Assembly (NCBI RefSeq): GCF_042242105.1
Contig: NC_092025.1
Span: 15,118,309-15,182,308 of the forward strand
Origin: Pempheris klunzingeri
Lineage: Eukaryota; Chordata; Actinopteri; Acropomatiformes; Pempheridae
Reading direction: 5' to 3'
Length of the DNA stretch: 64,000 nucleotides
Every line of letters starts with the position of its first letter. The first letter of the stretch is position 1. Of this stretch, positions 3,942 to 64,000 are shown one piece after another. The position numbers and the translations under genes were made by a program. Under the pieces are notes generated by a model. The model saw only the letters and a list, made by a program, of their open reading frames with translations, ran no database searches and had not been told where the DNA came from.

Positions 3942-6900
3942 ATGGTATGTAAGATCAAATAATGCTAAAAGCAGCTCACTTTTCACATTCACTCTTAAGT
4001 AACCTTAAGGTTGCTAAAATCATCCTCTGACATTAACATATAGAGTATATTCTGTTTTGGCCACTCATTGAAGATATAAGACTAAACATTTCCATGAAAC
4101 TGAAATATTGTGGATGTCTTTTGCATCATTCTATACACAAATTCAGTTTGACATATTTGGTATTTGTAGAAACGTTTACATACATAACTTGTGTTACACA
4201 TAACTTTACGTAGCTTTAACATTGCTTTAAATTCATTTAGAATTTTGAAGTAATGTTCTGTTGATTTAACAATATTTGGTTTATAATTAAGGCTAAATAA
4301 TGCAACATAATGATAAATGTGACTTATAATGTACATGTAAATAACATAAGTAATATGGGAATTGAATTTAATGCTAATCTCTATGATTTCACTTCATATT
4401 GAGTTTGAAATGCTGATTAAAGGTATATCCCTTTTGTAAATCTCAATTATTGTTTCATCCCAGTTGGCTTCTCTCTTTTTCTTTCTCATCCAATCAGAGT
4501 CATCGTTCTCGAGCCTCCAGAGTGCGGCAGCATGTCCACTGTGACTCCTGCTACAGCCGGCGCTGCAGGGCTCGGGTGGAGGTGTCTGTGTGCTGTGCAC
4601 TCATCCCCTGCCGCCTCCTCTGTGGAGCCGTCTTCCACCTGTGCAAAGAGGAGGATCACCTGCTGCTCTGCCCTAACGTGAGGGTGCTCTGCCTCAACGC
4701 TGCGTACGGCTGCCCGGTCCACCTGCCCCGCTCCTCGCAGGCAGCTCACCTGCAGGTGTGTCCTGCCAGCGTGGTGTGTTGCTCCATGGAGTGGAACCGC
4801 TGGCCGGCCAACGACGCCCACTCTTATCTGAGCACAGAGCTGCATGAAAACCTGCTCAGGGAGAGAGAGAAGGGAGGATGTCTGGACCTGGCCATGGCCA
4901 TGAAAGATCAGGACCTCCTGTTTCACTCCATTAAGATGAAGAAGCTGTTCCCAGAGCTGATCCAGAGCGTGGAGGAGGAGGAAGAGGAAGAGAGGAGGGA
5001 GACAGAGAGGAGGAAGGAGAAGCAGAGGCAGAGAAAGGCTGCCTTAGAGAAGGAGGCACCTGCAAGGGAAGCCGGTGGTCAAACCTGGGAGCCTTTTATC
5101 ACGTTTGAAATCAATACCCCTGATAAAAAGGAAGATGAAGACGAAGATGATGTTGAGCTTGAGGTTGCACATCAGCAGGAGCTAACCCAGGAGGAGAGAG
5201 AGGCTATAGCCAGGGGCTCAGGAGTGGAGGCTGAGCTGTTAGAAAACTACAATGCATGGGAGCGCATGTTCACTATGGAGATGGGTGGCTGCAGGGAGAG
5301 TGAAAAGGTAGCTGGGGCAGGTAGAGGCTCTGGACTGGAAGGGAGAGGCAAAGGCCTGGGCACACCAACAGAGGATGATACAGGCGCTACCTGTATGGGT
5401 CCCACAGCATCAATCACCTGCAAACAGGTGAGCAGCCCATGTGGTGCCTCCTCTGCATCCTCCTGTCTGACTGGAAATCAGAAGAAGACGAAATTTGTGT
5501 ACGGATATGTGGAGCCGATGAAGATTATCACAGTGCGTACCTTTCAAATCCCAACCAGCTTCTCTGCCAGGCAGGGCCGCATCCGCAACCCTGGTTTCTA
5601 CAGGAGGGGGAATCAAGCAGTGGATACCAGTGACCTGGGGATGGCTCTGGAGCAGATGCCAGTGTGGGAGGAAGTTCAGGTGAGAGTGAGAAAAATTCAT
5701 CCTCCTTATGATCTTTTCAGTCCATTGCATTTTCAGGTACTTAGTTACTTTTAGTGTTTGGCCACTTGAGGGCAGCAAAAAAGTCCAATACTCACTCTTC
5801 TTACAGCTCTTTTATTGGTTTCCACCATATCCTGAGGGAAATAATAATATGGAAGTAATCTACGGTAAGTCACTTATTTAAATATATGTGAGTCTAAATT
5901 AATTAATTAACTAAGCTGAAAGAGCACATTTCGTTTGTTGATACAGTTTATCCGTCATAATTCCTGAAGTTTTCAAAAAGATCTGTCAGATTTTTTTTAA
6001 TAATTACTCCAAAAGGACAAAAAAATAGTTAAAGGCATTACATCATATCCATCTCTTACTGTTTACTCAGTTGGGCTGAAAACTCTGAAATCCTTTTACT
6101 TAACTGCAGCTTCTCTGCAGTTGCTGCTCTCTAATAAATTTCAATCTTCTGCCCATACAAGGAGCAGACAGATGTCGACATACAGTCAGTTTCACTGAAA
6201 AAATCTTTAACATGATTAATATTTTAATGGAGGAAATAATCAGTTGTGTTTAATATGTATGAAATTCATCAGCAGCTGCAGCCATATTTAAAGTAGGACA
6301 CCCAAAATTGCATTTGTTCAGTGTCATCATGTTTGTGTGACACCTCCGTGACTTTCGCTCTCCATATTTCCTGAAAAAAGTGACCACAGATGCTCATTGA
6401 TTTGCTCCTCAGGCCAGTCTGCTCTGCTCCCTGGAGAAGGAGCAAAGAGGTCACCTCATTGCAGAGAGCGTGTGCACAGATGGCCTGTTACACGATGAGG
6501 GCACACAGACCTACAACTTCCTGTCTGCTCCTTTCCGGCCAGACACGTCGCTGGCTGACCTGACGGCCGCAAAACCGCTGGAGCTGCACCTTCAGCTGCA
6601 GGTGGAGAGCGTCACCAGCCGACACCACAAGGCCTCCTCCACCTTCACCTTCCTCTGTGGACACACCTTCCAGCGCAGGGAATACGGAAAACATTACAAG
6701 TGGGTTTTCTTTTTGTTTTTTATCCAAATGAATAGAATTAGTATTTTTAAATGATATGCATGATTCAATTATAGTCCCAAAATGTTTGGTTTCATCAAAG
6801 TAAGATATGGGACCTGAGAGGATTTCAAAAATCAATCACAGTTTATGTTTAAACTCATAGAAATAACACTTTTAAAACAATGTACATAACATAGAGAAAA

Positions 6901-9900
6901 GGAAAAGGAAATTTATACCATCATTAATAATCTATTCTGCAGCAGTTCACTACTGCACAAAAATTAAAACTTTATCACTCAGGTCAATATCATGCTCAGT
7001 TTTAATGCTATATGTTTGTATAGGACCAAAGCAACTAAGCACAAAGAATGTCATAGCAAGTCTTATCAAGTTTGATTGTCTATTAATCAATATGCTCTGA
7101 TATGCAGGAACATCCATAGTGACATCCAGATGTGTGTGAACGGATGGTTCGAGCAGAGATGCCCTCTGGCGTACTTGGGATGCACCTACAGTCAGAATAG
7201 GTTGCAGCCCTCCACACATGAAGCAACCGTCTCCTACAAGTGAGATAAAACGTTTTTATATCTATACGCATCTTTCTTTTTGTTCTTTAGATAAATCTGT
7301 TTTATGTCAAAGCAACATTTTATTACATAGAGTGGTTTTAAATCAGCAGTGACTGATTTTTTGGCAATTTGTGGAGATCTGAATGTCTTTATAAAGTTGA
7401 TATGGTGAACGTCTTAGCAAGCGCATATCTATTTACACATCCAGCAGTTACAGAGCAACATTAATAATAATTCCGAGTTGTGTTTCTGGCTCTTTAGTGA
7501 ATGTAAGTCCAATAGTCTCTCTCTTTTAGCTCTATTTTTGGTCTCTACCAACTCCTGAGGAAAATATCTGATTATTTAGCTGCTAAATGCTCCACTATAT
7601 TCACCAGCTTGTTGCTAACTGTGTCTAGCTGCTGTTTGGTATTGGGCAGGTAGTGTATGTTGGATTTTTAGTGGTTTTTCACTGAAAACAGCTGCCTGCT
7701 GTGTCTGGAAACGCTGCTATTAGAGCAGTGAGAGGGAACTGAAACAGTAATGTTGTATGTCAGACAGCCAACCAAAAAGTTGAGGGTCACAATAACGCTC
7801 TGTAGAGCTGTTACTCAAGAGACAGGTTATAATTTTCTGTAGGTTCTTCACTACAAGTGAGTCCTTTTACATCACACATAGTTATTTGATCCATTGGTAC
7901 AATAAAACTATTGATTATAGCAGCGTTGTGTTTTTGCATTTAAGAATCTACAACTTTAACTTTTATACATTTTACACATTGCAGTCTGTTTACAGGGGAG
8001 TACTACTGCAAAGGTTATATGTAAAAAGTTAGTTGCCTTAGGTGATGTCACTTGAGTCAGTGTCGATTCAGTCTGAAGACTACAAATATGAAAATGTAAA
8101 AAAGCCTGTCAGTGTGTCATCATCTCTGCTTGAGGGTAGCAGCTCAAAGCCACATTATCTAGCAAAACACGCCCTAGTCTTAGACCAAACTTTTGGCAGT
8201 CAAGTTGCATTATGGGTAATGAAGGTGCTAGATTTTGAAAGAACAATACATGGAAAAGATCTCTCTTGTTTATTCTCGACTTGATTACCGCAGTGCACCT
8301 TATTCAGGTACCACCAAGGGATCCGTCCTCCGTCTCCAGTTGGTACAAAACACAGATGCTCGTCTCAATAACTCAGAGGCATGAACACATCACCCCTGTG
8401 CAGCCTCCCTGCAGTGGCTTCCTTTAAGGTCTCAAATTGTTCTCAATTGCAGTAAATATCTAACACACCTTTAGAGACCACAGTTTCAACTTTGCTTTCA
8501 GTGAGGACCTGGGCTGCTTCAGCTTGCGCCCCACCATCCCTGTCTCTCTGGGTGACGCCTCACAGCCGTCCCGGAGCACCGAGGACTCCTCCACCACTCA
8601 GAGGCAGAGGAGAGGTCGTGCAGCAGGAGGGCAGGACTGTCTGAGCTCGCTGCCCTACGAGGTGCTGTGCCACATGGCCAGTTTCCTGGACAGTCTGTCC
8701 CTGTCCCAGCTGGCTCTGGTGTCCCAGCTCATGAGGCAGGTGTGTTCCACTCAGCTGCAGGAGAGAGGGATGGTGACCCTCCACTGGGAGAGGAAGACCT
8801 ACTCACATGGAGGAGCCAAGTGGAGGGTGAAGCAGAGGGTAAGCTGTGTGTCTGTTAGGAGAATTTACCAGGTGGAACAGTGTATATGGTACATACAGTA
8901 TATTCAAGTTTTCATCAGCAACATCTGGGCAGTTTAACGTATGTCATGTACATTAAATCACATTAGGGATTAATATACACTGTTGCCTATAAAGTTGGAA
9001 TAATTGTTCAATACCCCCAATTTTGTTAAAGCCTGAATACACAGTTTACAAGGGTTAATTGTAGTTTAAGTTTCACTGTGATATGTTTGGAAGAGTTTGA
9101 TCAATAAAATTGAGAAGATATACACTTTATTTATCAAGAATAAATCACATTGTCACAATCATTTCATGAGAAGAGGTAAAAAACATTTTATTCCAACTTT
9201 ATGGGCAACAGTGTATATGTGTCGAAATTATAAAATCAATTGTGGTCTAGTTAAAAGAATAGAAATGGAAAGCAAATCATTACTTTGGTGGAATTACAGT
9301 GGTGGAAAGTTACAAAGTACATTTATTACTGCACTCAAATACAATTATGAGGTACTTCTACTTTGCAGAATTTTTATTTTCTGCTGCTGTGTAGTTCTAC
9401 TTCACTACATGTGTCTGCTAGCTGTTGGTTACTTTACAGTTTAGATTATATGTGAATAAATGAATGATCAGCTTGTAATGTACATTGTTAAATGTTAAGT
9501 CAGTGGATCCTGTGTGATAAAAAATAAAAATAAATCTATTAGGGGGTCAAATTTCACATGTCTATGAGTTGTTAGCAGTTCCACCAAAGAGAAATTTCTC
9601 TTCTAAACCTCTCAGATTGTTTCATTTCAAAGCCCAAAGATGTAAAATTATCCAATATTTCTCAAAAAGATTACAGAAAATTCCCTTTTCATCTTTGATG
9701 CTTTAAGAACACTTTGCTGGTAATACTTGTATTAGTACTTTTACACAACAGTTTTCTATGTTCATCTTCACAACAAAGAAAAAAATCTACAATCTAATAT
9801 TTGATTGAATGTAATTATAGCATCACTATTAGGAGAATACGGATTGAAATTACAGTATTTCCTCACCTAATAAACATGCAGGGGCTTTTTTTCTCTTTGG

Positions 9901-52883: not shown

Positions 52884-53567
52884 ATGGGACAATACAGAAC
52901 AGCCCTACAGAAAAAACATTACAGCCTGACAGTAGCAACAGGTGTGTCACAGCCACAGAGTGCTGGCATGGGATTTAACAGCACAACATGTTTTCTTTCA
53001 TCATTTTTCTTCATCTTTTTAGGCTCGTCTGTCAACATTTCAGCACGACCAGTGTCTCAAACCACTGGCAACAACAAAAGCATTTCCACTGGCTGCAAAG
53101 ACGGGAGGATAGGTGCTGAGAACGAGTTCAGTGTTACAGGTAAACTTAACTCCAGCAAGCTGGAAAAGGCTTTCCACAGCACAACTTTCAGCTGGATAAT
53201 CTGGAGAGTTTTGTGACATCGTCCTCTCGGATGTCTTCTCCTCTGCAGGTGATATTGGAGAAAATGTCTCTATGGGTAACATCAGCAGCATCCATGTTTC
53301 TGGAGCAAACCGAGGGTGCATTGGAGGAAGGAACAACTACGCTGTGACTGGTGAGTTATCTTTCTCATATGTCTCGTCGGTGGTTTATTCTCTTTTTTAT
53401 TTAAGAGGTCATTACACCACATATCTGAGCTTGATGAACTTGCTTATATTCCTGGTATTTCAACAGGACCAATTGCAGCCAAGTCCAACATTGGCAACGT
53501 CAGTAATGTTACTGTTGGCAACAACTCGGGATCTATTGGTTCAGGGAACCACATTAACATCAGCTGA
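52884..53567 (+). CDS. Gene A: Gly/Asn-rich RHIM-like repeat protein
   Basis: I do not recognise this family. The best model has exons 52884-52941, 53023-53139, 53249-53350 and 53467-53567, giving 125 aa with all junctions in phase 1. Exons 2-4 each encode one or two halves of a repeat: TGCKDGRIGAENEFSVTG, then ENVSMGNISSIHVSG with CIGGRNNYAVTG, then SNIGNVSNVTVGNNSGSIGS with GNHINIS. Each carries I/V-G-x-x-N followed by alternating hydrophobic residues. The first exon (MGQYRTALQKKHYSLTVATG) is not found in genes B and C and is uncertain. The codon that aligns with the start ATG of B and C is GTG at 53053 here. A 3'UTR intron begins one base after the stop, with its acceptor before about 53713 and AATAAA at 53791. 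No signal peptide or membrane segment is seen. Confidence 0.6.
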
Positions 53568-53790
53568 GGTGAGAAGGAAGGCGACACATTTACTGGTCAC
53601 ACAGGGGATAGTACTGAATGTGTGCATGTAAAATGTTTATGTGTTCATATTTTCTGCATCAGTTGTTTCTTCTACCTTGCTCTCCCCTCTTTCTCTGCCT
53701 CTTCTCTAACAGGAAATTGCCCTCCAGGGGATTTTAAATTCATGAGCTGAAATCAGCAAAGGTCAATGAGATTCGCCAGCTTAAACATTT

Positions 53791-53796
53791 AATAAA
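53791..53796 (+). terminator. Poly(A) signal of gene A
   Basis: AATAAA in the second 3'UTR exon, which starts with gaaattgccctcc after a CTCTAACAG acceptor. Confidence 0.6.
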
Positions 53797-56030
53797 TATA
53801 AATGAAAATAAGGTCATGATGCTGCACAAAACTGTTTTACATTGTTTTTTTTTCATTGTTTTTGGTCAGAGGCAAAGGAAACTTTTTCTCTTCATTTTAA
53901 GCCGAGCACTGGGAACACAGGAAAGATATACATGATAATATATATCTGATTAATCAAAACAACAGACATCTGATCCCAAAATGAAAAATCTTTGAGACAC
54001 TAAAGCAGCTATAGAGCGCCTGGTCATTATAGACCTGCCCATCATCTAAATGTAGCAATGAGGAACCTGTGATCGACCTCCAAGGAGGAGATTTCCACAG
54101 AGTCAGCTTGGACAAGGATGTCATTCTATGCTACTGTACATCTGTGGGACCAGCCGCACTGAAAAGCCTCAAAGATTCACCTGACTTCTAGATTTGTAAT
54201 GAACTCGGTGGTGATTGAATGATAATTCGCCATGCTAGTAATAATGTGTATTATTCAAATAAGTCTAAAACTTTATTGTAGAGTTGGATGCAAATCATGT
54301 TTATTTAAGCGGTAACTGGATGCTGCACCAGGATTGTAATTTTTTGGACTTGAGCAAGATGGCAACTTGCGACACTGGATTTAAGGAAATTCTGTGACGT
54401 AGATTTGAAATGGAAGCTTGGTTCTGGACCTCGCTGCCCATATCTTTGAGTATTACATTTATTTAAATAGGAAGAAATTAATAATACAGTGAAAGGAAAT
54501 GGCGATTCAGTCTGATTACCAGGCTAGTGAATTAGTGTATTATGACAGAGTGGCAGCAAGATGGGGCTATATCCAAACCTGTGGACACAGCTGTGATTGG
54601 TGCTCTGACGCTACTGATTTAGTTGACAATTTCAAGATGACATTTGAGAGGTGGATCATGTAGAAAAAAGAAATAAAAAGTTCTATTTGTGGCTTCGTTG
54701 AGATCATTAAAATATGCTGCTCTATCGCACTAAATTTCACACTTAATAAAAAGAACCTGAAGTTAGCCAACTTGAAGAACTTGGTGTTTTTCTCTCTCTT
54801 ACATATCCTTCACGAAAACATTTACTCTCAGAGGAGTTTTACCGATATAAAAGGAAGACATTAACATAGAGCTTGAATCTAAATCATCCAGCTGTGTACA
54901 TTGGTTGGTTTCTATCAATATAAATTCTCAACTTTATGACGTTCCTCTAAAGGTTAAAAAAGAATTATTTAAGACAAAGCAAATTGAATTCTCATCCTTT
55001 TTGGCTTTTCTTATTTATGATTTAATGTCCATGGTTTACATAATTGCAGATTTACAAGTTTTACTTTATAACGGCTACACAATCAAAATAAGCTTATAAG
55101 TAAATAAGTAAAGCTTCAGGCCGCACAGTTGCTAAACCAAAGGTTCAGATTAATGTCAGACGCCAAACTTGCGACTCATGGTGGTTTTGTGGTATTCAGT
55201 ATGGAACATTTATATATAAAAAAAAAAGTAGTAGTAGTTGTCTGAATTTGAAATTAGTTCATTACAAACATTTGACTGATTGTTATTAAAATAAAAAATC
55301 ATCAAGCACAGCATGATGCTAAAAGTCACAGCATTTGCTGAAAAATATATGAATTATATTATATTAAATATTACAGGTGTAGACAGATGCCAGCAGTCAT
55401 ATTTGAACCTCTGATTAGTTAATTATTCTGCTGGGAGAAAAAAATGCACCATGATTAGCATGTGGATAAATGATGAGATCATTAAGATGTTTAATTGTGT
55501 GTTAAACATCTTAAGTATGCCATAATCTAGCCTCAGATTTTACATTATCGTAGAAGTGCTTGCTGAATGTTTTGAATAACTTGTAATTTCTGAATACAAC
55601 AATAATGTAGAATTTGTTTAAACAGATATGTATGTCGACAGATCCATGATAACACAGTAAATTAACTGATTTTGTTAAAGGAAGTAAACTGGAAGGACAC
55701 TCTTGAATCCTGTTAATACTGTAAAGATAAAGAAAAAAACAACAACAGTACAACGAAGGCAGCAAGTAAGTTGAAGTCTCCACAGTGATTTCAAAATGTT
55801 TTGTTTTACAGTGATCATTTTTACCCTGTTGAGCAAATTACTGAGCAGAAATCTGGCTTGTTGTACGTAGTTCAAGTCTGGATTCATCCAGTGAGCCCAT
55901 GGATTTTTGCTGCTTTTGTTTTTATAAAGCCATATAGTAGCTCAAACACAATGACTTAATGTAACAAAAATCCATAGGCCCCCTTCATGGGCATATGTGA
56001 ACATTTCTAGAGTCTACAGTGTCAAAATAA
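53797..56030. other. Spacer between genes A and B
   Basis: AT-rich with no recognised gene. The last 200 bases, next to gene B, carry promoter-like elements listed separately. Confidence 0.45.
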
Positions 56031-56037
56031 GGTTCTT

Positions 56038-56047
56038 GAAACTGAAC
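56038..56047 (+). promoter_or_regulatory. ISRE/IRF-like site upstream of gene B
   Basis: GAAACTGAAC matches the IRF-binding pattern GAAANNGAAA at nine of ten positions. It lies about 170 bases before the TATA box of gene B and next to a block (acttcagctgatgtagcac) conserved upstream of gene C. The aligned gene C position does not keep the site. Confidence 0.35.
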
Positions 56048-56205
56048 TTCAGCTGATGTAGCACGGCAACACACCTCACGTATCCCCTTTAGGCTCTGTG
56101 GGAAAAGTTCAGTTATGCTGAACCAACAGAATACCTGACGAACACACTCACTGAAGTTCCTCCTCCATAAACCCTCAAATGACATGAACATGCACGACAG
56201 ACACT

Positions 56206-56211
56206 TATAAA
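56206..56211 (+). promoter_or_regulatory. TATA box of gene B
   Basis: TATAAA in the context acttataaaagcagag. A 5'UTR exon ending caactgaagccagtg|GTAAGA (exon end 56280) starts about 30 bases downstream. This gives a well-formed core promoter. Confidence 0.75.
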
Positions 56212-56449
56212 AGCAGAGCTGTCTCTCCATAATTCTGACAAGCTCACTTCACAGCACAGGACAAACAACTGAAGCCAGTGGTAAGACAAAAGACCCCATG
56301 GGTGTCTGCTTCTCTGTCGGACACCTCGGTCAGCGGCGGATATTTTATATTGAGGCTATGACGAACTCTCTTACACTTTGTGCACTTCTTACAACAATAA
56401 CTGATTCAACTGTGACTGTTCTCTGCCTGTCTAGATTTCAGCCGGAACA

Positions 56450-56959
56450 ATGGCGCAAATCGCAAACGCAAAGGACATTGTAATCCAGGACAACGAAGGG
56501 GAGGTTGCTACAGGCAACAGCGTCGACCTTAAAGGTAAATCGGAGAGTGACTACACCATTCTGTCAAGTTGCCTTTATAGTTTCTATTAAATCTCTTTCT
56601 CTAATGATTACTTTTACAGGAGGTATTGGACAACACGTCGCTCTGGGCAACACCACTGACATCTTGGTTACAGGAACAAACACAAAAGATGCACGAATTG
56701 GAGCACAGAACACTTTTACGGTTGAAGGTGAGTTACTCCTCTTATTGCTGAGACTGTATGAAGCCGTTTATCTCAATTCATTACCCATGTTCAGATATCA
56801 CCATCATTATGGGAAGAATCTGATTTTTTGTCCCCTCTCGTTCTTCATACTTCAACAGGAAAACTGGCAGACAATGCAAGTGTTGGCAACACTTCTAATG
56901 TTCTAGTTGGAAACAACTCAGGATCCATTGGTGCAGGGAATCGCATTAACATTGGCTGA
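56450..56959 (+). CDS. Gene B: Gly/Asn-rich RHIM-like repeat protein
   Basis: I do not recognise the family. The exons are 56450-56534, 56620-56727 and 56859-56959 (97 aa), all junctions in phase 1, after a non-coding exon that ends at 56280. The product starts MAQIANAKDIVIQDNEGEVA and contains VALGNTTDILVTGTN, then DARIGAQNTFTVEG, then ASVGNTSNVLVGNNSGSIGA and GNRINIG. Each exon holds motifs of the form V/I-G-x-x-N with alternating hydrophobic residues, as expected of stacked beta-arches. There is no signal peptide, membrane segment or Cys. It is the simplest member and probably close to the ancestral form. A TATA box is at 56206. The stop is followed by a 3'UTR intron (TGAG|GTAAG) with its acceptor at about 57121 and AATAAA at 57255. 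Function unknown. Confidence 0.78.
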
Positions 56960-57254
56960 GGTAAGAAGTCAAATTTACTTGCCACATTGGAAACAGTATC
57001 AGATGTGTACAAATGACCTACTGATGTCTCAGTTTGTTATTGTAAAACTACATAAACTGAATTTTCTCATCAATTTTTGTATCTCATTCTCTCTCGCTCT
57101 CGTTGTCTTTCTCCCTTTTAGGAAACTGCCGTCCAACAGACAACCCCTCTAAAAATGAGGAATGAGGAAGTGAACAGTGAACAATTTAAAAATGATACAT
57201 ATGTTAAAACCATTCACAAATGACATAAAATGAATGTAACATACAATTGAAAAT

Positions 57255-57260
57255 AATAAA
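57255..57260 (+). terminator. Poly(A) signal of gene B
   Basis: AATAAA in the terminal 3'UTR exon, which begins at about 57122 with gaaactgccgtcc. Confidence 0.65.
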
Positions 57261-57469
57261 GTCTACCTACTGCAAGACACTGTTCTTGGCTGAATATATG
57301 ATTTAACATTTAATTGTTTTACGACTGACCTCATTGTCATGAATGTTGTTTTGTCTCTGTGGTGTGTGTTTTTATTTAGAAAACTGACTAACCAGCAGTT
57401 AGCTGCTTTTTGATAATCTCCACTCAACTAAAAGTGGCTGCATGAGCATTATGCCTGACCTCCCTACCA

Positions 57470-57560
57470 GTCAGTTAGAACTGAAGAAGCCTCTTGGATG
57501 AGAGGCGAAACGTCTTCAAGTACCTTCAACAAGTCCAGTTGACTTTTTGCTCAACTCCTA
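57470..57560. repeat. Dispersed repeat fragment
   Basis: The phrase gaagaagcctcttggatgag followed by aggcgaaacgtcttcaag recurs in vertebrate genomes as part of a retroelement. Only a fragment is present. Confidence 0.5.
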
Positions 57561-57824
57561 AGGAACATGAGGTGTGACCTTAGCTGTGCCATAATAATGG
57601 GGGTGAATACTATCTCTGTAGAGGAAACGGTACAAGTAAAGTAGATAACAAATAACAAAGCTCAGTATTTAAAATCAATAAACACCTACATGTACACAGT
57701 TCAGCAGAAGAGATGAATGAAGGATTTGTGCGTCCTAACATTAACTATGACGAACACAGTCTAAGAGTGAGTGGATACCGAAATAAATTGAGCGGCTGTG
57801 GCTCCTACAACTCCCGTCGAAGTC

Positions 57825-58050
57825 ATGTCAACATGTCGAAGTGTCCTTGGGCAAGACACTGAACCCCAACTTGCTCCTGAAGCATGGCTTCAGTGTGTGA
57901 ATGAGTATGAAACAATAGTCTCCTCCAAATTACATTCCTCCTGTATGAATGATGTGTGAATGGGTGAATGAAGATGTCATGTAAAGCGCTTTGAGTAGTT
58001 GAAATAACTAGAAAGGTGCTATACAAATACAGACCATTTACCATTTCATT
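57825..58050 (-). repeat. SINE-like teleost repeat
   Basis: It has gtgtccttgggcaagacact, tgtgtgaatgggtgaatg and gtaaagcgctttgagtagtt, ending in ctatacaaatacagaccatt. This is a well-known abundant repeat type in fish. The strand call is tentative. Confidence 0.65.
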
Positions 58051-58900
58051 TATTAATACATGTGAATCGGTTAATATCTGGATCTATAAAGTTCTCTACA
58101 TTTACACAAATACACATAAGTGAGTCAAAGAAGGGACCTTTATATCTGTGATCAGAGCTTAGGATAACATGCATTACCTGGATATTAATGTCAAGGGTTA
58201 GGGTTATCAAATGTATTCAAAATGTGCAGCTGAAATTACTTGTAAGGAAAAAAAACTGTAGATTAAATTTAGTGAAACAATTAGAGCACTGATGCTAATT
58301 GTTCTACAATATGCAGATCTACAATATGTAACTAGATACAAACTACATTGCATTTGGCTGTTCTAATTCAGGTCTTATTCAAATGTTAATGTCAACCAAG
58401 GCTGGGCAATATGGCTAAAATCTATATCAAAATACTAATAAGAATATATTGTAAATATGAATACAGTATCTATCACTATTGTGATGTTTAATGTAATTAT
58501 TCACCATTTTCAGATTCTGATACTTTTTTAGAAACACTATTCATAACTGACATCCAACCATCCCCAAATAAATAAGTCCTAAAAACATCTCAAACAGGTT
58601 TTAAACGTCATTTAACATTTCCTGCCTGTTTCATTGTTTGTGTTCAGTCAACTGATGCTGATAATGTACAGTGCTTAATGCCTCTTCGGTAGTAACGTCA
58701 TAAGCAAAATGGCCGATATCAATGCTCATTTTTAAAACGTCTTAATATAAGTCAATTAAAATTTTAAGTACAATCTAAAGTTAACATTCTTGTTTCTCAA
58801 TCATTGACTTCAGCTGATGCAGCAGTGCTAAACAAAATCCCCCCTTTGGACTCCGGGAAATTTTGTTGAACCGAAAAAAAAAAACGGCTGCTAACCAAAA
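58051..58900. other. Spacer between genes B and C
   Basis: AT-rich with no gene recognised. At about 58809-58827 the block acttcagctgatgcagcag matches the upstream block of gene B, showing that the promoters were duplicated together. Confidence 0.5.
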
Positions 58901-59155
58901 GGAAGTTCTCATCCCCCCCCCAAGTAATCGACACACCTATTCAGAACACCACAGAGTCTTCTGTCCTCATATCAATAAGCACAGATCAACCAGAGGTGAG
59001 ATTATAACTGCATGTCTGTCTGTTTCTCTGTTTAAAGTTAACATCATTGTAAAACACTGATGTCAAATTCTTTAGAAGAGTTTTTTCATCTGAGAATTTT
59101 GACTGAATCCCTTTCATGAGAAATACGGTTTTCCAGTCTGTTTTCAGCAGGAACA

Positions 59156-61793
59156 ATGGCACACAGGATTGGTAACAACAAGGACATTGTAGTCGGGACC
59201 AACACGGGGAAGATTGGCTCTGAAAACATTATCAACATTGGTGGTGAGCTCAGCCACAGCACACTGGTGTTTGTTGATGATATTTATCTGTCATGTCAGT
59301 TTTGGGGTGAAGCAGAAAGTAGAAACTGTTCGGCAATTTCACATCCTTCACTTACACTAACAGATCAACATCTTTACAACACAGTTTTATGCAAGAGGAA
59401 GAGTAGGATTATCTAAGTTTTCTTTCCTTGTTCTTATCGTTTGCAATGCAAAAGGAGGAAAAGGATCCCAGTCAAATGCTGACAACTCATGTAACAGAAG
59501 AGGAGGAAGCAGCTGTGGATCGACTGCTTCCGATATTGTTAAAAGTGCATCCCACCAATTTAGTGCTGTACAATCAATACAGAGATATAATTTCTCCTTT
59601 TTTGCTTAACACATTCTTCTTTCTTGTCCCTGACAATAAAACTCGACTGGCAATAGTTTGGTCAGAGATTGGGGTGTGTTATGCTAGTAGCTGCTACTGT
59701 AGTCTTGAGCCGCTAACCTTCACTTTAACTCCACACACAGATTTTTTTCTCCATTTTCAAATTTGTAGTCCTCAGACCCAATGGATGCTGACTCAAGTGA
59801 CATCACTTGAGTCATTTTTTAAACTCAAACTTTACAAAGCTCCCTCTGGACCCACAAAAGACTTTTTACAACTTTTTTCACTTATGCAGTAGTACTCCTC
59901 AACACCAGTAAACAGACTCTGATGTGTACAATTTCTGAAAGTCCACTTTGGAGTGGGCTAATTTCTGATTTCTTAGTCTTTCTCTGTACTTCAAAAAGGA
60001 GGAACAGGAGCGCCGTCAAAAACTGGCAGCTCATGTAACACAGGAGGAGGAACTGGAGGCAGCTGTGGATCGACTGCTCCGGGAAAAACTGGCAGTAAGA
60101 GCGGTGAGTTCAGTGTCTGACACTGTTGAGAAGCTGTTAGAAGTGAGCTGTTTCATGATTTTTGATTTCTCGGTCATTCTCTGGATCTCAAAAGGAGGAA
60201 CAGGAGCGCAGTCAAACACTGGCAGCTCATGTAACAAAGGACATGAAGGCGACTGTGGATGTACTGCTTCAGGGAAAACTGGCAATGCAAGTGGTGAGTT
60301 CTGTGTATCTTTATTGCTGAAAAGTTAGTGATTTCTGATTCGTAACTGATAATTTGTGCAGTAAGATGTGTGCGCATTTCTATTTTTTGTGTTGAGCAGG
60401 AGGAAAAGCAGTTGACATTGGCAATGTTACTAACATGACAGTTGGAGACAATGCAGGAGACATCGGGGCAAAGAACAACTGCAATGTGAGCGGTGAGTAC
60501 GGTGCATCGTATTGGTAAGACGTTAATAGACATGGTCACTCATAAAATAAGATTAGACTCTGTACACTTAACAGTTTGCGATTTTTCAAACTTATTCATT
60601 GTATTTCAACAGGAGGAAAAGGAGTCATGGTAGATATTGGCAACGTAAGTAACATGAAAGCTGGATTCAACACCGGAGACATTGGAGCAGGAAACAACTG
60701 CAATGTAATGGGTCAGTTCTCTGTCTCACACTGATGGAAAGTTTGGAAAAATTGGGCAGATTCATGATTTCTGTTTTATTACTGTGTTCACACTGAAAAC
60801 AGCAGTGGTTTAAAAAAAAAAAAAAAAAAATCCAAAGGGTTGAGATGATGGCGAGTCGCCTCAGGTACTAACGCAACCGTGAACGATGATCCAGAAAGGC
60901 CAGTTTGAGCAATGACTTTGAAGAGTTATCAGACGTTAATACACTGTTCAGGGGATCCTCATAATAACTCACCAACGCTGGATCTGAGAGTCATACTGAC
61001 ATTAAGATTTAAGAACTTAAAAAATAATCTGAGAACAATATATATCAAATATACATATCTTAAGATAAACAAACATTTTTGATTAAGATCCCTTTAATTA
61101 GTTTTTTAAGGTCCCTAAAGACCAAAATATGTACCAAGGCAGTTATTTTAGTGGAAAAATAAAGACATCTTTGCTCACTGTTGGACAGAATAATGCCACT
61201 TATCTAAATGACCTCACATTTATCTTTATCTTAACACTGAGATTTCTGCAGTTTATATTGGCCTGGGCCACATTATGGCTCTGGAAAGTCACCACAGTGA
61301 CAATCATTTGTCAATGATCACAAGGTAAACGGTCTTCCTTCATGCAGTGCTAACACCAGCATCAACACAGCCTCAAAGATAATATTCTGTATATTATTTA
61401 TCTGACTACAATTAGCAGTAAAAAAAAAAACAGTGATTCTGTTTATGTATTATTCTTTGTATTTCAACAGGAGGAGACGGGGTCAAAATAAGTATTGGAA
61501 ACGTACGTAACATGACAGGTGGAGACAATGCAGGAGACATTGCTGTGGGAAACAACTGCAACGTGAGCGGTGAGTCCTGTGTCTTACACGGCATGATTAC
61601 ATGATCTCTCACTGATGTATGAGACTGTAAACTGCAGACCTAAGATTAACACTTTGTGAATTTATTCTGTTCATTTTTTTGTAAATCAACAGGAGGAAAA
61701 GGAGTTGAAATTAGTATTGGCAATGCAACAAACACAGAGATTGGCTTCAACGCAGGTGGCGTTGGTTCAGGGAACAATGTAAACATGAACTAA
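59156..61793 (+). CDS. Gene C: multi-unit RHIM-like repeat protein with Cys/Ser/Gly linkers
   Basis: I do not recognise the family. A 5'UTR exon ends at 58995. The coding exons are 59156-59243, 59999-60103, 60195-60293, 60400-60492, 60613-60711, 61471-61569 and 61693-61793, giving 227 aa; all internal exons are multiples of three with phase 1 on both sides. The order is: N-terminal unit (NKDIVVGTNTGKIGSENIIN), two Gly/Ser/Thr/Cys linkers (such as TGSSCNTGGGTGGSCGSTAP), three units ending N-N-C-N-V (such as VDIGNVTNMTVGDNAGDIGA), and a terminal unit ending GSGNNVNMN. The unit at 59455-59547 aligns with the linkers but has lost its donor and is left out. The 60711 donor is GTCAGT. A 3'UTR intron follows the stop (TAAT|GTAAG; acceptor at 61908), with AATAAA at 62067. 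Only this member has Cys. Function unknown. Confidence 0.72.
59455..59547 (+). pseudogene. Dead linker exon of gene C
   Basis: This segment aligns with the linker exons at 59999-60103 and 60195-60293, has an AAAAG acceptor, and has an in-frame length (93 bases). The place of the GTGAGT donor reads CATCCC, so it cannot be spliced in the normal way. Because the exon is symmetrical in phase, skipping it keeps the frame. Confidence 0.65.
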
Positions 61794-62066
61794 TGTAAGG
61801 ATGAGTTTTAGATGTCATAAAGAACCATTTTATCATTTTAGTTTTTTGTGTTAAAATACATATTTTGTATTTCATGTTTGACTGTGTTTCTCCATCTCTA
61901 TTTTTCAGGAAATCCCTGTTCAAATGATAAAGGACGACAGTGCTATATGACATCCTATTATGAGAAGTACTGAAACAACAGAGTAACAAATGCGACGTTA
62001 CAAAAAAAAATTGGTTTTGTGGCATCCTTTATAAATGTTTCTGTTTTGCATCTTCCATTGTCTCAC

Positions 62067-62072
62067 AATAAA
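62067..62072 (+). terminator. Poly(A) signal of gene C
   Basis: AATAAA in the final 3'UTR exon, which begins at about 61909 with gaaatccctg after a TTTTTCAG acceptor. Confidence 0.65.
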
Positions 62073-64000
62073 CATTGTTTGAAATCATGGTTTTATTGTC
62101 TTTATTGAACTATTTTGGACAGTTGGCAACTAACAAGAGAGATTTAATAGGTGATGAATAAGTTATTAGCATAATGATTATACTTAAATACAGTAAATAC
62201 GCCTGAAAACATAGGTACTGTATACACAGTTGTAGTTATTAAGAGCATTTGTGGTATTTCTAAAATGTCACTGTAGTCATCATACGTTTTGTTTTGTTTT
62301 TTTTTTTAAATGGGTTTAAGTGAATGGTAACCTGAATAGAAAAATCATTGTTTATGGATGTGTTTACATAATACAGAAGAACTCAGTCTCATGGATTGCA
62401 CTACTGTAGGTGATGATATGTTTGTTTTCTATGTTTGCCTGATTTTTGTCACCAACATGTAAAATTACAGTTCTCATTCAGACATACATGTTTAACACCA
62501 CAGCATAAACCAAAAGCATGTAGACATCTAATATTCTATTTAATAATGAATTAAATTCACCTTTTACTATAAATTCTAATGTAAAGTAAATTAGCTTCTG
62601 TATTCAAGGAAATCTATTCTAGAGATATAAAACAATGACAAATCAAACAAAAACAAAACTAAACAAATGTGTGGGGAAATAACAAATGTGGATCTGAACA
62701 TTCAGGACAGGTCACTGAATGGTTTGATGAGTATAAACATTATGTGAATCACATGTTGTGGCCTTCACAGTCTACATGTCTCAACCTAAATGAACACTAA
62801 CGGGAGATTTTGAAGTGTTAGACTCTCCAATCATGAAAACACCAAATGTGTGACTATATTTCGGAAGAATGTTGTCCACCTCAACCTGCCGGTGTCGCAC
62901 TATGGTCCTCCTTCACAGCAGTTTGACATACCAGTGGAATTTAAGAGACCGTGAATGTGAAAAATTATTTGGCCACAGCAGTTTGAGGAGCTCTGAATTC
63001 TGACATTGCTCTAATTACTGTAAAATACACTGATTCACTTAACTCCAACGCAGTCGTTACCAAAGATCAGTGAGCATAACTTTCAGGCAGCGCCTTCTCC
63101 TTTTTAAATGACGTTAACCATTGCTTTCAATGGTTAAAAGCACAAAAGTCGCCCGCTGTCGCCAATTAATGTTAATTCCATGAGTAACTTGATTCTCCGA
63201 TACTCTGTAGCACCGCTGTCCAGTTGTGAGTTGGGTGTTTCTGTGGTTATAACAGCTGTGATGCATTTTGACAGATAATGCCAGATGAATTTCTGGAGTC
63301 ACATTTTCCCGATTAAACTTTTAATTATATCATATGAACTTTGTATTTTTTAATCAGGACTTCTAGTATTTGGATCAAGAAGCCTGTAAAATATCAGATT
63401 AGGGAAGTTGTGCAGAGTGTAAGGTACATATTCAATCAGCATTTAGGTGAATATAAATGTTGGATTGGACTCTGTATCAGGCCAAAAAAACTTGATCTAC
63501 TCCACTAAAACAAATGTTATCTGCTTTGTTCCTCTTTCCGTCACATTGTCAAGCTGTTCCACAACTCATTCCTACAACTTTGCTAATTTCACTTGATGTC
63601 TTCTGCTTTCAAACATTTCGGTCACCACGTTTCCTTTTTTACTTTTGCTCTTTCGCTTTCTTTATTTCTTCATCTTCCTCTATTTGAACACTGAAAAGAG
63701 TATTAGCCACAAGAAAATGTGACTAATAACATGTCCAGTGAATCTCTGGCATGCATATGTGCATGTACACACACAGAAAGCACACAAAAACACGTTTCCC
63801 CACCACACTACCCATTCAGCTACCATAACCAAAAAACCCAACGTCCTCCTCGTCTAGTTTCATGTGCTAGTTTTGAAACAAAGGCTGCAGTTTCATTATA
63901 AGTAATAGATTACAGACTTTCTTAAACCTTGCAGGTAAACTGTTTAATGTAAATAACTGTCAGGCTGCTGGTTTTTCCATACAACACGCTGATCCGAGTG
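62073..64000. other. Right-edge sequence with no gene seen
   Basis: AT-rich sequence with short chance ORFs. I looked for further repeat units of the A/B/C family and for GOSR1 5' exons and saw none. Confidence 0.5.

Follow-up and report, generated by a model that had tools for sequence, protein, structure and literature searches.

What kind of protein is encoded by three adjacent fish genes whose products consist almost entirely of a short glycine- and asparagine-rich repeat? The genes, termed here A, B and C, lie in tandem on the plus strand at 52.9-62.1 kb of a 64,000-nucleotide stretch of the Pempheris klunzingeri genome (contig NC_092025.1; the whole stretch is hereafter called the window). 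An earlier reading made from the letters of this DNA without database searches (the sequence-only reading) had likened their repeats to the RHIM motifs of RIPK1, RIPK3 and ZBP1, and had proposed a part in cell-death or antiviral signalling. We find that the three genes belong to a genuine repeat family that carries no name and has so far been seen in percomorph fish only. Its members may constitute a capless β-solenoid-type family whose units stack and whose molecules possibly join end to end, a reading to which we attach about even weight, and the sequence features do not support their membership in the RHIM family.

The window has the look of intron-bearing vertebrate DNA. In all three genes each repeat unit of ~32 residues occupies an exon of its own, and the internal coding exons are of phase 1-1. 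The encoded proteins are 124 (A), 97 (B) and 227 (C) residues long, and their frames remain open through to a single stop over 3, 3 and 7 coding exons, respectively. In B, the repeats fill the chain from the first to the last of its 97 residues, leaving no cap. The features of the cluster are as follows:

52968..53139, plus strand: gene A exon 1, coding for a signal-peptide-like segment and unit 1 with one conserved Cys (N-terminus as in the relatives P0005, P0009 and P0010; hydropathy 2.2 over 12 residues)
53249..53350, plus strand: gene A exon 2, unit 2 with the second conserved Cys (phase 1-1, AG/GT borders)
53467..53567, plus strand: gene A exon 3, unit 3, ending in TGA (91% identity to the equivalent Etheostoma unit)
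53713..53815, plus strand: gene A exon after the stop, here 3' untranslated region (UTR), with AATAAA near 53791; start placed by string search and resembling that of the B exon, right end approximate
56046..56058, plus strand: 13-base block upstream of gene B, with an identical copy upstream of C
56206..56213, plus strand: TATA box (TATAAAAG) upstream of gene B
56236..56280, plus strand: first exon of gene B, 5'UTR, its approximate start set by the position of the TATA box (similar stretch before the start in P0006, P0003 and P0015)
56450..56534, plus strand: gene B unit 1, running from the start codon to the donor and lacking a signal peptide (match to P0001 over residues 1-96)
56620..56727, plus strand: gene B unit 2 (open frame, unit profile)
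56859..56959, plus strand: gene B unit 3, ending in TGA (open frame, unit profile)
57122..57280, plus strand: gene B 3'UTR exon with AATAAA near 57255; start placed by string search, right end approximate
58807..58819, plus strand: 13-base block upstream of gene C, identical to the copy upstream of B
59156..59243, plus strand: gene C unit 1, running from the start codon to the donor and lacking a signal peptide (matches to P0003 and P0002)
59455..59544, plus strand: possible extra Gly/Ser-rich unit exon of gene C, donor doubtful, kept outside the gene model (repeat family; translated in the unit frame and in another frame)
59999..60103, plus strand: gene C Gly/Ser/Thr/Cys-rich unit (same-frame alignment to unit exons; similar stretch in Perca P0003)
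60195..60293, plus strand: gene C Gly/Ser/Thr/Cys-rich unit (same two lines of support)
60400..60492, plus strand: gene C canonical unit 2 (grouped with its croaker counterpart, unit 2, in the unit tree)
60613..60711, plus strand: gene C canonical unit 3 (tree, identity table)
61471..61569, plus strand: gene C canonical unit 4 (tree, identity table)
61693..61793, plus strand: gene C canonical unit 5, ending in TAA (tree, identity table)
61909..62090, plus strand: gene C 3'UTR exon with AATAAA near 62068; start placed by string search, right end approximate

The three genes share a further peculiarity, in that an intron seems to start one base past the stop codon in each of them (53565-53815, 56957-57280 and 61791-62090). 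Two A-type open reading frames (ORFs) among the relatives, P0014 and P0025, have Trp at the position of the stop, so that some fish may translate the final exon. Separately, part of a gene C intron (59640-59814) matches positions 8034-8206 in inverted orientation at 71% identity and is perhaps a transposon remnant.

Across 59 distinct sites from the window and its relatives the unit reads φ-x-φ-G-N-x-S/T-N-φ-x-V-G-x-N-x-G-x-I-G-A-x-N-x-φ-N-V-x-G, where φ is a hydrophobic residue; the sites were picked by the pattern [IVL][GA]xxN with G, A, D or E two places earlier, and the first strand was read by eye. The motif [IVL]GxxNx-φ-x-φ occurs three times in A, twice in B and four times in C, as compared with a mean of 0.03-0.04 in residue shuffles, where the observed number was reached in 0, 1 and 0 of 2000 cases, respectively. 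A hidden Markov model (HMM) of the unit, built from 15 units of database proteins with the window units excluded, picked out 10 ORF pieces with scores higher than any of 5 shuffles attained (maximum 9.2 bits). All of them lie on the plus strand at 52.9-61.8 kb, and the best expectation value (E), 1.7e-14, belongs to gene A exon 2; outside the cluster no match in the window was better than E 0.5. The model missed the C units at 59999-60103 and 60195-60293, which align in the same frame with the unit exons yet lack the motif, and gave the unit at 61471-61569 just E 6. A second open frame in the two missed exons, encoding a charged, coiled-coil-like peptide, was rejected: its ratio of non-synonymous to synonymous substitution rates (dN/dS) is 1.74, as against 1.0 for the unit frame, and the canonical units align in the other frame. 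Open frames, shuffles and unit model together thus confirm what the sequence-only reading had said of the layout, namely three tandem plus-strand genes for small, nearly all-repeat proteins.

Protein searches retrieved 33 different relatives: 32 came from one search, 11 of them with a named fish source, and the croaker protein P0002 was added by another. The eight species concerned (Etheostoma spectabile, Perca fluviatilis, Perca flavescens, Pagrus major, Sparus aurata, Lates japonicus, Thunnus thynnus and Larimichthys crocea) are all Percomorphaceae, from Eupercaria, Carangaria and Pelagiaria; as the search required shared five-residue words, this is the range seen so far. Searches of phages, plasmids, viral contigs and prokaryote genomes turned up no relatives, the contig searches reaching close relatives only. 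The records describe the proteins as hypothetical or uncharacterised, or misname them, and searches of the literature on RHIM in fish, teleost β-solenoids and percomorph repeat proteins yielded no title on this family among the matches listed. Neighbouring locus numbers (FQN60_000641/000642 and PFLUV_G00190470/190480) suggest that A- and B-type genes are neighbours in two further species, and the protein predicted for croaker joins B-type units to C-type ones. In a tree of 15 sequences, the B and C groups are supported (96/99 and 99/99), and A does not form one resolved branch.

Such a set of nameless records might be a chance assembly or a dying gene cluster with no protein function, a reading in keeping with the lack of a functional name in most records of known species and with two C units that look relaxed (dN/dS 1.0 between them). 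We nevertheless consider it the least probable of the explanations weighed here, since conservation contradicts it. Window A shares 65-73% identity with its A-type orthologues, and window B shares 54-59% with the nearest B-type proteins, those of Percidae, and 46% with that of tuna. In 10 other pairs of unit exons within the window dN/dS is 0.21-0.55 (a simple Nei-Gojobori count, without confidence limits), which points to purifying selection on most unit exons; the frames, as noted above, are open over all coding exons, and the Sparus, Pagrus and Thunnus records bear isoform names.

The order of the units appears to have been kept as well. In a tree of 25 units (33 columns, too few for many of the forks), C units 2-5 pair with the croaker units of the same position. 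In the table of identities the same-position croaker unit is the best partner of C units 1, 3, 4 and 5, while C unit 2 is equally close to croaker units 2 and 4. Each of the three units in A, and each of those in B, has its best partner in the Etheostoma unit of the same position. The array thus seems to have been maintained without homogenisation. The last unit is the most conserved in comparison with Etheostoma, at 91% against 61 and 74% in A, and at 72% against 45 and 58% in B.

The members of the family are predicted to differ in location. The relatives P0005, P0009 and P0010 start with M-G-F, followed by a hydrophobic stretch leading into SSVYIS(G/A)RP, and window A reads alike from the ATG at 52968, without an intron at 53023; by this orthology, the start of gene A is to be moved to 52968 from position 52884, where the sequence-only reading had put it. 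Hydropathy over 12 residues is 2.2 in window A and 2.2-3.2 in five of the six A-type relatives with a listed N-terminus. The sixth, P0007, is another isoform of P0008 with a different start, and a leaderless A form may therefore exist. Two Cys outside the leader are present in all six. The corresponding hydropathy is 0.3-0.9 in window B and five B-type relatives, 0.75 in P0002 and 0.6 in window C. On hydropathy and orthology, A is thus predicted to be secreted, and B and C to lack a signal peptide.

What, then, might such chains fold into? Autocorrelation of G, of I/V/L/M and of N in five sequences gives a period of 33 in C and in croaker P0002 and of 32-36 in the other three, with a sub-period of 8-9 in most cases and sub-periods such as 8, 17 and 25 as well. 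Moreover, 11 of the 13 columns that are invariant in 12 homologues are Gly or Asn, and the column counts of the 59 units agree. The earlier suggestion of strands alternating with turns, in which Gly and Asn are conserved and from which stacked β-arches could be built, is supported. From this periodicity and these columns we infer a unit of four short strands, φ-x-φ-G-N, φ-x-V-G-x-N, G-x-I-G-x-x-N and φ-x-φ-x-G, and successive units would stack as a β-solenoid with hydrophobic residues pointing inward, Gly at the turns and columns of Asn forming hydrogen-bond ladders. Changes in length, judged by eye, fall mainly between strand 4 and strand 1 and past strand 2, as expected for the loops of a solenoid. 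Since B has no cap, the ends of the stack should be sticky, and molecules are likely to join end to end or to pair. A would then be the secreted form, with its two conserved Cys, acting outside the cell, whereas B and C, the latter being the longest, would remain inside. The likely role would be that of a multivalent scaffold or binding surface.

Several observations weigh against this capless β-solenoid. The fold is read from the pattern of the sequence alone, and no β-solenoid family was matched convincingly in the Pfam and PDB profile searches. The sub-period is uneven, with steps of 7, 8 and 9, whereas the known folds that come nearest are built from layers of 14 residues or from strict octads; in the autocorrelations, P0012 has its strongest I/V/L/M lag at 6, and P0002 has its second-ranking G lag at 12. 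The Ser/Thr/Cys-rich units of C lack the hydrophobic pattern, in addition to their dN/dS of 1.0, and part of C may be disordered. As to location, the hydropathy of P0003 is 1.6, in a stretch taken for a 5' exon.

The same features would also suit a functional amyloid or a β-solenoid fibre unrelated to RHIM, for instance a matrix, mucus or storage fibre. All-repeat chains without caps, a period of 32-36 residues, columns of Gly and Asn and a last unit that is the most conserved are what speaks for it, and amyloid-like assembly is possible. Many β-solenoids, on the other hand, stay soluble, and we regard a fibre as unlikely, though the most serious of the alternatives. The bolder scenario, in which duplication of a single exon gave a vertebrate lineage a family of capless β-solenoids that assemble into fibres, one member being secreted, two staying in the cell and none being related to RHIM, strikes us as slightly more doubtful still.

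Database matches lend the family no established identity, in line with its earlier description as unrecognised: Pfam, NCBIfam, PHROGs and PDB gave no convincing match. The unit profile found no PDB chain at E up to 10. Of the other PDB searches, some gave nothing, and the rest returned chains of eS4, RNase G/E, designed propellers and an amylase domain, with a best E of 0.48, all judged to be chance. Among Pfam rows, RodZ_C (best 0.0043), CBM_25 (0.0056) and Gp5_trimer_C (0.012) are weak and reach no shown cut-off; AVR-Pik_HID (0.034) was put down to chance, though it recurs in C-type sequences, as were the weak rows for tRNA_anti-codon, Pepsin-I3, Gln_amidase_like, PRC, EAD10 and Pentapeptide_2. 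Three NCBIfam rows (best 0.12) were likewise put down to chance. PHROGs gave eleven rows, the best of which, without description, reached E 0.0015 and occurred in 3 of 12 members; we judged them to reflect repeat composition. Weak rows were assigned to chance because most were confined to one member, reached no shown cut-off or had E of at least 0.48.

One of these matches has left its mark on a database name. The tuna protein P0012 (Thunnus thynnus) is recorded as VgrG1b-like and matches Gp5_trimer_C over residues 1-75, which would be in keeping with the capture of a gp5/VgrG-like repeat from the spike or needle of a bacterium or phage, as would the octad-like spacing and the presence of two tail-fibre families and one virion structural family among the weak PHROGs rows. 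The tuna match, however, scores 16.2 bits against a cut-off of 30.9 and occurs in 1 of 12 members. In the available excerpt of PMC3004832, gp5 octads have Gly at a, Asn/Asp at b and Val at g, with one residue more before Gly; the steps of 7, 8 and 9 seen here are not strict octads, and in three of the four strands a hydrophobic residue directly precedes Gly, so that both the position of Val and the phase differ. Introns between the units and the lack, within the reach of our contig searches, of phage, plasmid, viral or prokaryotic relatives also argue against capture, which we deem very improbable; the name VgrG1b-like, that of a bacterial secretion spike, appears to be an artefact that arose from a repeat match.

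We now turn to the proposal of RHIM-like or HET-s-like amyloid signalling, according to which the units would template amyloids of the RIPK1/RIPK3/TRIF type as a scaffold, decoy or seed in cell death. The resemblance that suggested it is real: the G-x-x-N and the hydrophobic alternation after the tetrad are common to both, as the sequence-only reading had recognised while also remarking on the missing Gln. They exceed what residue shuffles give, and the chains are rich in Gly and Asn, with no signal peptide on B and C. In the parts of PMC9444067 and PMC12119088 available to us, however, the tetrad (V/I)-Q-(V/I/L/C)-G is what defines RHIM; PMC12119088 names five natural tetrads that diverge from it, all of which retain Gln, and the excerpt of PMC12575786 describes the tetrad Gln as forming a ladder in RIPK1 fibrils. 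Every φ-G-x-x-N site was counted in 36 sequences, the three window proteins together with the 33 relatives from the databases. Gln occupies the tetrad position in none of the 80 sites; one residue earlier, Gly stands in 70 of them and a hydrophobic residue in 7, the latter a point in favour of the proposal. Some C-type units of relatives read VKIG, in which the hydrophobic frame of RHIM is present with Lys for Gln; the sole bare tetrad, LQLG, is in the tail of P0004, where we take an unspliced ORF to run out of frame. As RHIM is defined by its tetrad, the missing Gln is more than a detail, and the likeness in G-x-x-N is not enough to call these units RHIM.

Profile searches agree. The curated RHIM model, which we take to be PF12721, gave no row at E up to 10 in the Pfam scans, in which HMMER filters drop most matches above about 0.1 and no known RHIM served as control. 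No row for a HET-s prion-domain model appeared in these scans either, and PADLOC gave none at E up to 1. Fungal PP motifs, in the excerpt at hand, have a Gln-centred core, NxGxQxGxN, and Gln is absent here at the core position. Partner domains are likewise lacking. RHIMs are attached to a kinase, TIR or Z-nucleic-acid domain, whereas no kinase, NLR or death domain was seen here, the Pfam column being empty for the 33 relatives and no Pfam domain being found in the 12 members and three window proteins scanned. Finally, A appears to be secreted and would thus be ill-suited to scaffold necroptosis within the cell. RHIM kinship is accordingly not supported, and we hold amyloid signalling of this kind to be about as improbable as capture of a needle repeat.

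Nor did we find any link of the genes to cell death or antiviral defence, the role proposed earlier. None of the 9 ISRE (interferon-stimulated response element)-like and none of the 4 NF-kB-like sites of the window falls in 52-62 kb, and the three GAS (gamma-activated site)-like sites in this interval all lie within unit exons. The regulatory scan did reveal the TATA box of B. The 13-base upstream block is common to B and C, and Rfam gave no match in 50-64 kb.

Elsewhere in the window, an ORF at 46874-47299 matches CD225 (interferon-induced transmembrane/dispanin) at E 0.00038, below the Pfam cut-off. The segments 1565-2147 and 4429-5007 are copies of each other in opposite orientation, 85% identical over 593 aligned positions, and overlap two ORFs termed FBXO40/30-like on the basis of their domains: both contain zf-TRAF_2, and F-box_4 is found at 8524-8934.

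A family common to several percomorph lineages, with no convincing match in the four collections searched and no named function, offers a clean case of a lineage-restricted repeat protein made by exon duplication. If the β-solenoid fold proves correct, it would in our judgement be unusual for a vertebrate, with one secreted and two leaderless members adjoining each other; if the proteins do form fibres, fish would possess functional, amyloid-like polymers of a new class that has no relation to RHIM.

How does the family compare with known repeat systems? The octapeptide triple β-helix of the T4 gp5/VgrG needle shares with it Gly turns about every 8 residues and Asn after Gly, and differs in its regular steps. 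The left-handed parallel β-roll heads of trimeric autotransporters (YadA/BpaC type) resemble it in G-x-N followed by Gly near position 8, in columns of Asn and in stacking repeats; according to the available part of PMC9543794, YadA-type heads consist of 14-15-residue layers with GDN/GEN/GSN and an Asn ladder, whereas by our own reading the present units would form layers of about 16 plus 17 residues. The family, moreover, has no anchor and consists of animal genes with one unit per exon, and the Pfam scans gave no row for the YadA-type head-repeat model. Grass ice-binding proteins are also small, with short repeats rich in Asn, Val and Gly; in the accessible excerpt of PMC5744647 these are NxVxG/NxVxxG β-rolls of 14-15 residues per turn, in contrast to the N-φ-x-V-G and N-φ-x-G columns found here. 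None of these three folds appears to fit in period and phase or matches by profile. In further contrast to the ice-binding proteins, the family includes warm-water fish. With HET-s and the fungal PP motifs the family has in common a repeated Gly/Asn motif and short strands, and it departs from them in lacking the central Gln and any effector or NLR partner. RHIM (of RIPK1, RIPK3, ZBP1 and TRIF), finally, shares with it φ-G-x-x-N followed by alternating hydrophobic residues, short strands and Gly turns, but where RHIM has its (V/I)-Q-(V/I)-G tetrad, the family mostly has Gly in place of the first hydrophobic residue, carries several units in a chain that bears no partner domain, and includes a member, A, that appears to be secreted.

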